DNA of 64,000 nucleotides from Veillonellaceae bacterium SB90 (GTDB lineage Bacteria; Bacillota; Negativicutes; Selenomonadales; Selenomonadaceae). A model generated the notes under the pieces. The model was not told the origin of the DNA, searched no databases, and saw only the letters and a program-made list of their open reading frames with translations. Positions 2,721 to 45,278 of this stretch are shown piece by piece. The position numbers and the translations under genes are program-made. The DNA lies in assembly GCA_902364065.1 (NCBI GenBank), contig CABJCJ010000013.1, positions 1-64,000 on the forward strand. The letters run 5' to 3'. Positions within the stretch are counted from its first letter, which is position 1. The number at the start of each line of letters is the position of its first letter.

Positions 2721-4103
2721 TTACTTGCCGATGCAGAATTTGCTGAAGATCTCATTAATGATATCCTCACCGACCGTCTCGCCTGTCAGTTCACCGAGCT
2801 TTTCCCAGGCCGAACGCAGGTCGATGGATATGAAATCCAGCCCCATGTCGGCCTCGATCGTCCGCAGTGACGCCTCAAGATGTGCGTCAGCCTGACGCAG
2901 TACCTCGGCCTGGCGGGCATCCGTGACAAAATCGCCTTCCTCACCGGCAGCTGCGCCGGCGTAAACGCGCGAGCGAATGCTTTCCACCAGGCGCGTGAAG
3001 CCGGCCTGCGTATGCGTCGAAATGGGAATGACCGTCTGGCGCGGGGCGCGTGCAGACAGGAGCTCGGGTGTCGTCACCATCGGCAGGTCGCATTTGTTGA
3101 GCAGAAGGATGGCATCGTGCTGCGCGCTGAGCGCGAGGATTTCCTCATCTTCGCGGCCGAGCGGGCGTGACGCGTCGAAAAGTGCCAGTACCAGAGAAGC
3201 CCGGTCCGCATACGAGCGGGCCTTCTCGACGCCGATGCGTTCGACGACATCATCCGTCGAGCGGATGCCGGCCGTGTCGATGATGCGCAGGGGGATGCCG
3301 CCGACATCGGCGTATTCCTCAATCGAATCGCGCGTCGTGCCGGGAATCTCCGTGACAATGGCCCGTTCCTCGCGGAGCAAAGAATTGAGCAGGCTGGACT
3401 TGCCGACATTCGGCTTGCCGATGATGGCCGTCATGAGTCCATCCCGCAGGATGCGTCCGGCATGTGCCGTTTTCAGTATGCCGGAAATTTTGTTGCGCAT
3501 ATCAACCACTTTTTTCTGTATATCGTAAGTCAGCACATCGTCCACTTCATCCTCCGGGAAATCGATGGCGGCTTCGATATGGGCAATCATGCCGAGTATA
3601 TCGTGGCGCATCGCCTGGATGCCCTGTGAGAAATGTCCCGTCAGGTGCCCCGCAGCCATGGCCAGCGAAGCATCCGTGCGCGCTTCAATGATGTCCATGA
3701 CGGCCTGAGCCTGCGACAGATCAAGCCGCCCGTTGAGGAAGGCGCGCTTCGTGAACTCGCCGCGCTCGGCGGGACGCGCTCCCTGCTGCCACGTCAGGGA
3801 CAGGATCTTGCGCAGCGGCATCATGCCGCCATGGCATTGCAGTTCCACGACATCCTCCACCGTATACGAATGCGGCGCACGCATGACGAGGGCAATGGCC
3901 TCATCAACGACCCGCCCGTTCTCATCGATGATCCGGCCGTAAACGGCACGATAACTCTCCGTATCCGCCAATTTGCGGCCGCCGGCCGATTGAAAAACGG
4001 CCTCGGCCACTTCAATGGCATGCTCTCCGCTGATGCGGACAATGCCGATGCCGCCCTCTCCGCGAGGCGTGGCAATCGCACTGATGGTATCTCCCTGCTG
4101 CAT
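2721..4103 (-). CDS. mnmE: tRNA modification GTPase MnmE (TrmE)
   Basis: GTPase half of the MnmEG complex that modifies tRNA wobble uridine U34. The 460-residue product has the N-terminal folate-binding domain, a helical domain split by the G domain (P-loop GKPNVGKS at about residue 227, switch region IPGTTRDS, NKCD motif) and the invariant C-terminal CIGK, whose cysteine is required for tRNA modification. The start at 4103 (protein begins MQQGDTISAIATP) is chosen because AAGGAAGGG lies just upstream; the longer reading from 4178 adds unconserved residues. The gene lies between khpB and mnmG in the leftward operon. Confidence 0.97.
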   Translation of the reverse strand: MQQGDTISAIATPRGEGGIGIVRISGEHAIEVAEAVFQSAGGRKLADTESYRAVYGRIIDENGRVVDEAIALVMRAPHSYTVEDVVELQCHGGMMPLRKILSLTWQQGARPAERGEFTKRAFLNGRLDLSQAQAVMDIIEARTDASLAMAAGHLTGHFSQGIQAMRHDILGMIAHIEAAIDFPEDEVDDVLTYDIQKKVVDMRNKISGILKTAHAGRILRDGLMTAIIGKPNVGKSSLLNSLLREERAIVTEIPGTTRDSIEEYADVGGIPLRIIDTAGIRSTDDVVERIGVEKARSYADRASLVLALFDASRPLGREDEEILALSAQHDAILLLNKCDLPMVTTPELLSARAPRQTVIPISTHTQAGFTRLVESIRSRVYAGAAAGEEGDFVTDARQAEVLRQADAHLEASLRTIEADMGLDFISIDLRSAWEKLGELTGETVGEDIINEIFSKFCIGK

Positions 4104-6650: not shown

Positions 6651-6883
6651 TGTGGATATTTCGCGCCTCATTGGGACTTGCTCACATAAAAACTGTTGAT
6701 AAGTCCCCCTGATTTTGATAAGATATTGTTGATTATTGTGCGGAAAACCCATTGGTGCCCTGCCTGACAAGGCTCGCGAATCTCTAAGCAATATCCACGC
6801 TTCCCGCCTCAACCCCAGGAGAACCTTCGAGTTATCCACACGTGTGGATAAAAATGTGGATAAAATTATGCACCTGTGGAAAA
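6651..6883 (+). other. oriC: oriC, upstream DnaA-box cluster (rpmH-dnaA intergenic)
   Basis: The 415-bp gap between rpmH and dnaA contains the first half of the origin. DnaA boxes (consensus TTATCCACA on either strand) are at 6651-6659 (TGTGGATAT), 6791-6799 (ATATCCACG), 6832-6840 (TTATCCACA), 6843-6851 and 6855-6863 (TGTGGATAA twice) and 6875-6883 (TGTGGAAAA). Four lie within 52 bp just before dnaA, as expected both for origin function and for DnaA autorepression. The rest of the gap holds the two divergent promoters; I see nothing else in it. Confidence 0.9.
6696..6724 (+). promoter_or_regulatory. Candidate dnaA promoter
   Basis: TTGATA (6696-6701), a 17-base spacer and TAAGAT (6719-6724) form a good sigma-70 promoter about 200 bases upstream of dnaA. 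DnaA boxes lie between it and the gene, which would allow autoregulation. Confidence 0.5.
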
Positions 6884-8379: not shown

Positions 8380-8593
8380 CGTGGATAACCTTGTGGAGAA
8401 CCCTATGGATTTCCTGTCGACACAATGTGGATAACCGAAAGGGGAGTTTACCGCCGTGGAAACTGTGGATAACCTCCCCTATTGTTATGAACAAGTTACC
8501 CACAGCAAACGGTGAACACCCAAGCGCCATACAGCCACTTATCCACTTTTCCACACGGCCTACTACTACGTCGGCTATTTATATATATATTTC
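8380..8593 (+). other. oriC: oriC, downstream DnaA boxes, DnaA-trio and AT-rich unwinding region
   Basis: The 266-bp dnaA-dnaN gap holds the second box cluster: 8380-8388 (CGTGGATAA), 8392-8400 (TGTGGAGAA), 8426-8434 and 8464-8472 (TGTGGATAA), 8496-8504 (TTACCCACA), 8539-8547 (TTATCCACT) and 8547-8555 (TTTTCCACA). Four bases after the last box is CTACTACTAC (8560-8569), then a GC-rich spacer and the alternating A/T run 8576-8593. This order (box, short GC spacer, CTA repeats, AT tract) is that of the DnaA-trio basal unwinding system described in Bacillus subtilis, so strand opening is predicted at about 8560-8593. Confidence 0.88.
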
Positions 8594-42393: not shown

Positions 42394-43656
42394 TCACTGT
42401 GTCTTGCTATTGTTGCCGCTGTTTTTTGTTGGAGCGGCAGGAGCCGTGCCCTGGCTGACGCTGCTGGACGGGGACCTGCTTTCCTGCGTCTGGGAGGAAC
42501 TGCGGCTCTGGCTCTCCGTTGAAGAGGAGCTGTGCGACTTCGCAGAGCTGGAGGACTGGGATTTGCTTGAGCTCTGCGTGCTCTTCTGCGTGCTGCTCTT
42601 GCTGTTTGACGATTTCGTCGCCGGGGCAGCCGTAGCATTGGCCGGGATCGAGCTTTCGTACTCGTGCTCGGCACGGTCGAGCAGGGCGCGTTCGCTGGCG
42701 TTGAGCTGGATGCCGAGCGTGTCGGCAAGCGTCGTGCGCAATTTGCGCAGATCCGGGATCCAGTAGCTGACGCCGTCGATGTAGAGGGGCTTGCCCGGGA
42801 CCATTTCCGTCTTGAGTCCATTCTTCTGGGCTTCCTTGAGCGTGCCGGCGAATTCCAGCATCTGGCGGAAGGAGAGGTCGGTCTTGACGGAGGACATGAC
42901 TTCCTTGATGACTGAAGGCAGTTTCGGGATGATGGTCGGCGAGGTGACCTTGTCCATGCAGGCCTTCATGAATTTCTGCTGACGCTTGATGCGCCCGATG
43001 TCGCCTTCCTCGTCGCGGTAACGCACGTAGGTGACGGCGGTCTTGCCATCCATATGCTGCATGCCCGGCTTGAGGTCGATGATGAGGCCGCCGTCGTCGT
43101 CCCAGGGATCCTCGTAGTACATGCGCTTCTCGACATCGATGTCGATGCCGCCGATGGCGTCGATGATCTTCTGGAACGCCTGGATGTTGATGACGACGTA
43201 GTGGTCCATATTGACGCCGAGGAAATCCTCCACGGTGCGCTGAGCGAGCTTCTCGCCGCCTTCCGTGCCACCCTTGGCACTGCCGTAGGCGTAGGCGGCA
43301 TTGATCTTATCCCAGCCGTGTCCCTTGATCTTGACGCGGGTATCGCGCGGGATGGACATGAGAGCGGCCTGGTCCTTCTTCGGATCGATGGTGGCGACCA
43401 TCAGTGTGTCGCTGCGTCCGACGTCGTCTGCTCGTTCATCGACGCCCATGATCATGATGGTCGATTTGTCCTTGGCCGTAAGCAGGCCGTCTTCGACAAC
43501 GTCGTCGGCTGATTTGTCGAGCAGGCTGTTCGATGCGAACAGGGCACCGGCGGCTGCTGCGCCGACAAAGGCCAGGACCAGCAGCACCCAGAGCCAGACG
43601 CGGCGTTTGCGGCGTGAACGGCGTGGCTGGCGCGGCGGGATCGGATTTGTTTGCAA
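42394..43656 (-). CDS. LytR-CpsA-Psr (LCP) family protein
   Basis: LCP proteins transfer anionic polymers or polysaccharides to peptidoglycan from undecaprenyl-linked donors. The 420-residue protein has a basic cytoplasmic N-terminus (PRRSRRKRR), one membrane segment (about 21-42), and the LCP core with MIMGVDERADDVGRSDTLMV, SIPRDTRV, KINAAYAYG and YVRYRDEEGDIGRIKRQQ, containing the conserved Arg/Asp residues. A Ser/Gln-rich, low-complexity tail of about 85 residues follows. The start is TTG at 43656 after AAGGTATCAA. It is a single-gene transcript with its own terminator. Confidence 0.92.
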   Translation of the reverse strand: MQTNPIPPRQPRRSRRKRRVWLWVLLVLAFVGAAAAGALFASNSLLDKSADDVVEDGLLTAKDKSTIMIMGVDERADDVGRSDTLMVATIDPKKDQAALMSIPRDTRVKIKGHGWDKINAAYAYGSAKGGTEGGEKLAQRTVEDFLGVNMDHYVVINIQAFQKIIDAIGGIDIDVEKRMYYEDPWDDDGGLIIDLKPGMQHMDGKTAVTYVRYRDEEGDIGRIKRQQKFMKACMDKVTSPTIIPKLPSVIKEVMSSVKTDLSFRQMLEFAGTLKEAQKNGLKTEMVPGKPLYIDGVSYWIPDLRKLRTTLADTLGIQLNASERALLDRAEHEYESSIPANATAAPATKSSNSKSSTQKSTQSSSKSQSSSSAKSHSSSSTESQSRSSSQTQESRSPSSSVSQGTAPAAPTKNSGNNSKTQ

Positions 43657-43841
43657 ATTGATACCTTCTTTTCTGATGATAGCAAAACTTCCCCATTATT
43701 GGGGTATATTCTTATTATAAAGAGCGGCGGGCTCCCATGCAATTACTTTCTTGATATCCACATCATATCGTAAGCAACAAGACTGAAAAAAAACTGTAGG
43801 CGTGTTAGAATAGCATGAGGATAAGAAAGGGGAGGATTTTC

Positions 43842-44312
43842 ATGGCAGATGAGATTGAACGCAAATTCCTCGTGAAAGAGGGCTGGCAGCCACAGCATGT
43901 GGGCGTGCGCATTGCGCAGGGATATCTGTTGTCTGCGCCGGAACGCATCGTGCGCGTGCGCATCAAGGGGGACAAGGGATTCCTTACGATCAAGGGACGC
44001 AATGAGGGCATCCGGCGGCTGGAGTTTGAGTACGAGATTCCCTGTGCGGATGCCGAGGCTCTGCTGAAGCTCTGCGAGCAGCCGCTCATCGAGAAGACGC
44101 GCTATCTCGAAGAGGTGGGCGGTTTTACCTGGGAGGTCGATGTCTTCGCGGGAGACAATGCGGGGCTGCGTGTGGCAGAGATTGAGCTGCCGGCGGAGGA
44201 TACGCCGTTTGAAAAGCCCGAGTGGACAGGGCAGGAGGTTTCCGGCGATGCACGGTATTACAATTCGAGCCTGATTGCCCATCCGTATTGCCTGTGGAAA
44301 ACAAGGTCATGA
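43842..44312 (+). CDS. CYTH-domain protein (putative triphosphatase)
   Basis: A 156-residue CYTH protein: N-terminal ExExK signature EIERKFLV, then IAQGYLL, VRVRIKGDKGFLTIKG, FEYEIP, IEKTRYL and VDVFAGDNAGLRVAEIEL give the alternating charged strands of the tunnel fold. Bacterial CYTH proteins hydrolyse inorganic triphosphate or nucleoside triphosphates; the substrate here is not known. The start at 43842 follows GGGGAGG. The last codons contain a DnaA box (44,294) that belongs to the cluster downstream. Confidence 0.88.
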   Translation: MADEIERKFLVKEGWQPQHVGVRIAQGYLLSAPERIVRVRIKGDKGFLTIKGRNEGIRRLEFEYEIPCADAEALLKLCEQPLIEKTRYLEEVGGFTWEVDVFAGDNAGLRVAEIELPAEDTPFEKPEWTGQEVSGDARYYNSSLIAHPYCLWKTRS

Positions 44313-44557
44313 GGTGATTGAGATATCCACAGGATATGGTGGGGAAAATCGCGGTAAAAAGCGCAAGATATGGGCGTTGACAAGTTGATTTTCGTATATA
44401 TGGTGGTTATCCACGGATTTATCCACATTATCCACAGAAAAGGAGAAAAATTTTAGCCACAATATGCACATAGCCCTGTATATATTATAGTAGGAAATGA
44501 AAAAATGGGCTTGTGGAAAAACAGTTTATCCACAGGTGTGGATTCTTTTGTGGATAA
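44294..44557. other. Second DnaA-box cluster, between CYTH and mgtC-like genes
   Basis: Perfect DnaA boxes (TTATCCACA or its complement) lie at 44419-44427, 44428-44436, 44526-44534 and 44549-44557. Near-perfect ones lie at 44294-44302 (TGTGGAAAA), 44324-44332 (ATATCCACA), 44407-44415 (TTATCCACG), 44512-44520 (TGTGGAAAA) and 44537-44545 (TGTGGATTC). TTGACA-16-TATGGT (44377-44404) gives a candidate promoter for the mgtC-like gene that runs straight into the boxes. The density equals that at oriC. A role in titrating DnaA or in DnaA control of the downstream gene is inferred. Confidence 0.8.
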
Positions 44558-44576
44558 CAGAAAGGGATGCAGATGT

Positions 44577-45278
44577 ATGGGGACTATGATGATATCGAAT
44601 GAGGAGCTGCTGCTGCGGCTGGTGCTGTCCTGTATCCTGGGCGGCATCATCGGCTATGAGCGGCAATCGCGGCGCAAGTCAGCGGGCCTGCGGACGAATG
44701 TGCTCGTCTGTCTCGGCGCCTGCCTCATCATGGTGATGTCAGAAGGGATTTATCAGGGCGTCGAAGGGCATACGAATGCCGATCCGGCGCGTCTGGCGGC
44801 GCAGGTCGTCAGTGGTATCGGTTTCCTCGGCGCCGGTGCTATCATGAAGGAGGGGCTGACGGTTACGGGGCTGACGACGGCGGCCTGCCTCTGGGTCGTG
44901 GCGGGCGTGGGGCTGGCCGTGGGCGGCGGCTTCTATTCCGGTGCGCTCATCACGACGGCACTCGTCTTCGTGACGCTTGGCACGCTTTCAAAGCTTGACG
45001 AGTGGGTGGATCATGAGAAGAATTTCTCGCTATCCATCCACACAATAGACCGTCCGGGACAGATGCTTTTGATCAACAATTGCCTGGAGGGGCTGCATCT
45101 GCGCATCCGCGGCGTCAAGATCAAGTCGGATGACTTCGATGATGGCCGCTGGGGCAAGAAGGGGCGCAAGTATCTTTCCATCGACCTGGAGGTCTACAAT
45201 CCACAGGGCGTCAAGGGTGTCATCGTGGTCGATGCCGTGCGCAGCCTCGAGGGTGTGCAGGGGGTCGATCTGATTTGA
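44577..45278 (+). CDS. MgtC/SapB-family membrane protein
   Basis: A 233-residue MgtC-family protein: LLRLVLSCILGGIIGYERQ, then SAGLRTNVLVCLGACLIMV and QVVSGIGFLGAGAIMKEG with the typical GIGFLGAGAI motif; four to five membrane segments and a cytoplasmic C-terminal domain of about 85 residues with an ACT-like pattern. MgtC proteins affect Mg2+ or acid adaptation and ATP synthase in pathogens; ordinary members are of unclear function. The start at 44577 is after AAAGGGA; an ATG nine bases later is possible. Its promoter region is packed with DnaA boxes. Confidence 0.88.
   Translation: MGTMMISNEELLLRLVLSCILGGIIGYERQSRRKSAGLRTNVLVCLGACLIMVMSEGIYQGVEGHTNADPARLAAQVVSGIGFLGAGAIMKEGLTVTGLTTAACLWVVAGVGLAVGGGFYSGALITTALVFVTLGTLSKLDEWVDHEKNFSLSIHTIDRPGQMLLINNCLEGLHLRIRGVKIKSDDFDDGRWGKKGRKYLSIDLEVYNPQGVKGVIVVDAVRSLEGVQGVDLI

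Follow-up and report, generated by a model that had tools for sequence, protein, structure and literature searches.

Nine DnaA boxes packed into 265 bp, in the gap that separates a CYTH-domain gene from an MgtC-family gene of Veillonellaceae bacterium SB90 (both genes on the plus strand), probably act in cis as a DnaA-binding locus that is close to the replication origin without being part of it, namely a DnaA-box cluster (DBC) that titrates DnaA. The cluster lies 35.7 kb from the boxes at dnaA-dnaN, in agreement with the distance of about 36 kb from oriC given in an initial reading of the letters alone. This sequence-only reading had offered three functions for the cluster, namely titration in the manner of datA or DBCs, coupling of MgtC expression to DnaA, and a latent origin. 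Titration is the best supported of the three, through the geometry of the boxes, their independence of the flanking genes, and their usual proximity to the origin, and we infer that DnaA binds the cluster and that this affects initiation.

Box content and geometry of the cluster

The window, i.e., the whole stretch of 64,000 nucleotides that was analysed, contains the following features.

6832..6863, boxes at +6832, -6843, and -6855: oriC triad (0/+11/+23) upstream of dnaA
6923..8362, plus strand: dnaA, assigned by eye from its translation and neighbours and, when used as a query, recovered in relatives
8539..8568, plus strand: unwinding module at dnaA-dnaN, consisting of two overlapping boxes, a 4-base spacer, and CTACTACTA
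42394..43656, minus strand: LCP (LytR-CpsA-Psr) family glycopolymer transferase gene, the commonest synteny anchor
43842..44312, plus strand: CYTH-domain protein gene, start placed by eye (the ORF opens at 43815)
44293..44557, no strand: whole DnaA-box cluster, nine boxes that match TTATCCACA with no more than one mismatch, conserved in relatives
44293..44301, minus strand: box TTTTCCACA, overlapping the 3' end of the CYTH gene
44323..44331, plus strand: box ATATCCACA, conserved at -84 in clusters of the Selenomonas type
44377..44404, plus strand: promoter-like TTGACA-16-TATGGT
44407..44436, plus strand: three tandem boxes at 0/+12/+21 that make up the core (TTATCCACG, TTATCCACA, and TTATCCACA) and on which the search patterns were based
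44453..44461, plus strand: box TTAGCCACA (+46), found in part of the relatives
44478..44494, no strand: AT-rich element GTATATATTATAGTAGG containing trio-like repeats, a candidate promoter -10 or unwinding element whose conservation is confined to the Selenomonas type
44512..44520, minus strand: box TTTTCCACA, without a counterpart in any other cluster of the window's type
44526..44557: 3' triad at 0/+11/+23 (box on the plus strand at 44526, two-mismatch box on the minus strand at 44537, box on the minus strand at 44549)
44577..45278, plus strand: MgtC-family gene, starting at 44577 or 44589

A box scan of the window placed four perfect TTATCCACA boxes in the cluster (44419+, 44428+, 44526+, and 44549-), together with five that carry one mismatch (44293-, 44323+, 44407+, 44453+, and 44512-). 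These are the four perfect and five near-perfect boxes claimed initially, except that the first starts one base earlier. Likening their density to that of oriC was fair, as the box clusters on the two sides of the window's dnaA hold six boxes in 233 bp (6651-6883) and seven in 176 bp (8380-8555). The accompanying remark that the gap has no other need of boxes is an opinion.

When up to one mismatch is allowed, the whole window contains 32 boxes versus 7.2 expected, and none of 100 shuffles reached 32. Across 300 first-order Markov simulations of the window, no 265-bp segment held more than three boxes, and when the training was done on the stretch of the cluster itself (44294-44586), 5000 simulations yielded at most two, versus the eight observed there. 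Chance was rejected as an explanation on the strength of the shuffles and simulations. Like a DBC, the cluster thus comprises several boxes within a few hundred base pairs, above chance.

Aligned clusters from relatives fall into three types, which have the core in common. Counted from the first core box, the Selenomonas type has boxes at -84+, 0+, 12+, 21+, 119+, (130-), and 142-, where the outermost positions vary by a few bases. In the second type, represented by 13 genomes from the range G039 to G052, they are at -70-, 0+, 12+, 21+, 55+, 77-, 112+, and 135-. The 3' triad is absent from the third type (5 loci), as it is from locus L077, and two Propionispira clusters (L023 and L026) are laid out differently. 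Judged by eye, the geometry of the 3' triad is kept in the Selenomonas type and mirrored in the second type (+,+,- at 0/12/23). The layout of the window's triad (+,-,- at 0/+11/+23) also occurs upstream of dnaA in 12 of 12 genomes, the window included.

The mean frequency of the commonest base in box columns versus other columns is 0.988 versus 0.661 (23 clusters), 0.970 versus 0.711 (13 clusters), and 0.961 versus 0.757 (5 clusters), a contrast that is partly built in, because the alignments themselves served to define the box columns, as places where at least half of the aligned sequences have a box, with all sequences given equal weight regardless of kinship.

Upstream of the core, two AT-rich motifs, one at 44362-44373 (CAAAATATRG-like) and one at 44396-44403 (ATATATGG-like), recur by eye in all three aligned types at a near-fixed distance from the core.

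A loose echo of the box-trio-AT layout of oriC had also been proposed on the minus strand, where TTTTCCACA is followed after 17 bases by CCTACTATAATATATAC. Both parts are present as written (44512-44520 and 44478-44494). The echo itself was rejected, as the box is absent from the other clusters of the same type, the 17-base gap exceeds the published limit of 16 bp, and no cluster passed the trio test described below.

Occurrence in relatives, neighbouring genes, and distance from dnaA

The relative closest to the window's mgtC, at 97% identity, comes from a Selenomonadaceae MAG, and next are those of Selenomonas montiformis (77%) and of Selenomonas strains; the best 80 of 312 relatives were kept. 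Among these best 80 loci, the 500 bp upstream contained at least three boxes in 22 and none or one in 55, while three were cut too short. The 22 box-bearing loci belong to Selenomonas and close kin, with two from Propionispira and two from Megamonas. Relatives that keep the genes and lack the boxes, which the sequence-only reading had named as evidence against its proposal, are found in a restricted sense: 55 of the 80 mgtC loci are box-poor, but in the available stretches they are without the window's LCP and PTS neighbours, apart from a 54% LCP match in L031. The box-poor loci therefore look like another clade or location.

Searches with a core pattern of 30 bases (at most two mismatches) matched 60 of 189 genomes of the family, and a looser pattern (at most one mismatch) matched 65 of 380 genomes of the class. 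The cluster is missing from many family members, and a few looser-pattern matches (L085, L102, L211, and L213) had none of the neighbour genes beside them. The core pattern undercounts clusters: when the LCP gene was searched in 73 of the 129 genomes without the core pattern, 14 of the best 30 LCP loci (30 genomes) still carried a box cluster beside it. The other 16 had none, including L250, in which ME-LCP is kept and the boxes are absent. The core spacing of 0/+12/+21 was also seen at another locus in genomes of the class (L225 at 3485-3565, L226, L227, and L229), where in L225 and L229 the box triple lies, by eye, upstream of apparent amino-acid ABC transporter genes.

Neighbouring genes were scored at 52 distinct core-pattern loci, leaving out 15 duplicates or off-context matches, L023, L026, and the LCP loci of pattern-negative genomes. 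CYTH stood directly before and MgtC directly after the cluster in 33 loci, MgtC only was present in eight, CYTH only in nine, and neither in two. L067, scored as MgtC only, has its CYTH gene beyond mgtC. In L099 and L100, which are close relatives (LCP 95% and PTS 98% identical), a PTS gene directly follows the boxes and mgtC is absent, and in L084 and L212 only LCP and YitT, of the proteins searched, surround the cluster. LCP is the most constant neighbour, although it is absent within 3 kb in L077. Since the flanking genes differ between loci, the element seems to be kept for itself.

A dnaA gene was found in 19 of the 20 genomes searched. In all 15 genomes with both on one contig, the cluster lies 18-62 kb from dnaA, near the origin as in a DBC, bearing in mind that draft contigs favour short distances and that 7 of the 15 genomes have contigs of 2.35-3.00 Mb. 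In the remaining four of the 19, dnaA and the cluster are on separate contigs; the pattern match of G032 is off-context. The exception to proximity is G056, a draft genome of a relative of the window, in which dnaA and the cluster are on different contigs, the cluster being some 300 kb away from the closer end of its contig. In G056 (contigs C4 and C6), the window's order of genes is interrupted right behind gyrB, and the part that bears the cluster lies on another contig. In G040 and G043 the cluster lies upstream of dnaA, and its orientation relative to dnaA is reversed in G043, G050, and G052. Proximity to dnaA could be inherited synteny rather than the result of selection, as neighbouring genes move with the cluster.

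Possible origin function, mgtC control, or DnaA remodelling

BUS-type origins are described, in a portion of PMC8287927, as a DnaA box followed by a spacer of at most 16 bp and DnaA-trios on the proper strand. The trio test used here demanded two CTA/CTT trios and then NTN, which is stricter than the published form and misses looser trios. As a positive control, it recovered a box, a short spacer, and CTACTACTA at dnaA-dnaN in 10 of 12 genomes (not in G051 and G052), whereas this strict motif gave an unwinding module in none of 41 clusters. GC-skew switches were fitted for the window and 11 other genomes. In nine of these 12, the best skew point was at most 8 kb from the dnaA start, and in G044, G052, and the window it was elsewhere; in none of the 12 was it the cluster. 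The switch was fitted better by dnaA-dnaN than by the cluster in 10 of the 12, and slightly better by the cluster in G052 and the window. The switch that fits the window best, at about 29 kb, falls in the interval from oriC (7-8.6 kb) to the cluster (44 kb) and perhaps reflects a local rearrangement or insertion. Low-GC stretches were seen beside it (0.445 at 24-26 kb and 0.38 at 30-32 kb).

The missing module in 41 clusters and the better fit of the skew to dnaA-dnaN in 10 of 12 genomes indicate that the cluster is probably not an origin. A second or latent origin, which the oriC-like density, the triad common to the region upstream of dnaA, and the skew fits of the window and G052 would favour, was rejected on these two counts and appears highly improbable; in relatives, both skew and unwinding module point to dnaA-dnaN, so that the cluster, like a DBC, sits outside oriC. 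The bipartite oriC at dnaA-dnaN of the same genome is like the cluster in box density and in its 0/+11/+23 triad, and differs from it in having the unwinding module. Such partial resemblance, together with the many family members that have no cluster, might also be expected of a remnant left by an earlier origin or an integrated plasmid, or of a neutral repeat array that has no function today. This is very unlikely, as box columns are far better conserved than the intervening sequence in three groups and the cluster is kept where its neighbours differ. The same variation in neighbours weighs on the proposal that DnaA bound to the boxes acts as a repressor or activator on the promoter-like site, tying expression of MgtC (or CYTH) to DnaA. 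The candidate promoter does face the boxes in the window, as the sequence-only reading had stated, and CYTH, cluster, and mgtC are co-directional. Several binding regions in B. subtilis at which DnaA acts as a transcription factor, according to an excerpt of PMC4447404, support this reading as well. However, TTGACA was recognized by eye in only 8 of the 41 aligned clusters and not in the remaining 33, mgtC is missing after 11 of the 52 clusters (L099 and L100 included), CYTH is missing before 10, and both are missing in two, while 55 of the 80 mgtC loci are without a cluster. MgtC control is therefore not the shared function and was rejected as the conserved role. The regulatory reading as a whole is unlikely, and the cluster may control mgtC locally in the window's genome.

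The 3' triad can be compared by box layout with DARS1 and DARS2 of E. coli, which we take to lie at bioD-uvrB and rppH-mutH, respectively. In the same scan, the stretches at these places have box triads of +,-,- at 0/+14/+26, equal to the cluster's triad in orientation and in the second spacing of 12 bp and different in the first (14 bp versus 11 bp), and the resemblance to the DARS core thus appears partial. A DARS- or datA-like site would alter the nucleotide state of DnaA, beyond merely binding it, in that two DnaA molecules, placed head to head on the convergent pair of the triad, would be prompted to release ADP or to hydrolyse ATP. Head-to-head contact of DnaA is reported for DARS boxes I and II (PMC5742627 and PMC8682772, in the parts that deal with these boxes), and preservation of the triad geometry in the Selenomonas type, mirrored by eye in the second type, is consistent with such a site. 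Speaking against it, the first spacing is 11 and not 14 bp, the third type (5 loci) and L077 do without the triad, and the triad is not locus-specific, as the same one stands upstream of dnaA in 12 of 12 genomes. A site of this kind therefore seems improbable.

Probable DnaA titration and its meaning for Selenomonadaceae

Replication control is poorly known outside a few model bacteria. The oriC-proximal DBCs of Bacillus subtilis are reportedly treated by Okumura et al. 2012. Removal of six DBCs in this species results in early initiation, and the phenotype is strong only when all six are removed, as stated in an excerpt of PMC5295017. As far as they are described there, these DBCs are similar to the cluster in that they comprise several DnaA boxes that lie outside oriC yet close to the origin. 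The cluster differs in that its box geometry is kept across genera, geometry having been compared on the Selenomonadaceae side only, and in that YabA was found in none of seven genomes of its family. E. coli datA is a box cluster outside oriC and reduces the amount of active DnaA once initiation has occurred, a role which the Selenomonadaceae cluster may share; the two are likened by role alone, and datA works with IHF (PMC5742627, in part).

Titration would begin with cooperative binding of DnaA to the core and the 3' triad. At usual fork speeds, the locus would be copied within a minute or two of initiation, and its doubling would sequester freshly available DnaA and thereby delay re-initiation. 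In the seven genomes searched for YabA, Hda was likewise not found above the cut-off, the strongest matches being dnaA itself, while the control search found YabA in B. subtilis and Lactococcus. With neither YabA nor above-cut-off Hda, titration may bear more of the control than it does in B. subtilis or E. coli. A point against titration is that the fixed geometry exceeds what simple titration needs.

Perfect boxes genome-wide outnumber matches to the reversed pattern in G154 (111 versus 17), G155 (90 versus 9), G046 (34 versus 5), and G051 (21 versus 5). Eight genomes chosen for their missing core pattern have between 5 and 93 perfect boxes, so few boxes do not simply accompany the missing pattern; one of them, G013, shows no excess (13 versus 14 reversed). 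Low genome-wide counts were seen in G013 (13), G014 (5), and G077 (6), and the other five of the eight have 24 to 93. E. coli boxes are enriched near oriC and have a lagging-strand preference, according to a portion of PMC12371093. Among the matches listed for contig C1 of G154, tight groups of perfect boxes lie about 107, 122, and 399 kb to the right and 182 kb to the left of dnaA, and most single boxes of the right arm are on the minus strand, most of those of the left arm on the plus strand.

The kind of element is known from DBCs, datA, and DARS. Searched by title, the open-licence literature yielded no paper on this locus and none on a DnaA-box cluster in Selenomonas or Negativicutes.

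There is a small chance that Selenomonadaceae time initiation by a paired DNA device, in which the same convergent triad upstream of dnaA acts together with a dedicated cluster about 20-60 kb away that also remodels DnaA (DARS- or datA-like, with its own spacing) or loops to oriC. If so, the device would be a DNA-encoded replacement for protein regulators such as YabA and Hda. The triad common to the cluster and the region upstream of dnaA raises the question of whether the spacing of boxes, beyond their number, is functional. With a base-pair geometry that is conserved in culturable bacteria in which YabA and above-cut-off Hda were not found, the DnaA-titration model becomes testable in this family.
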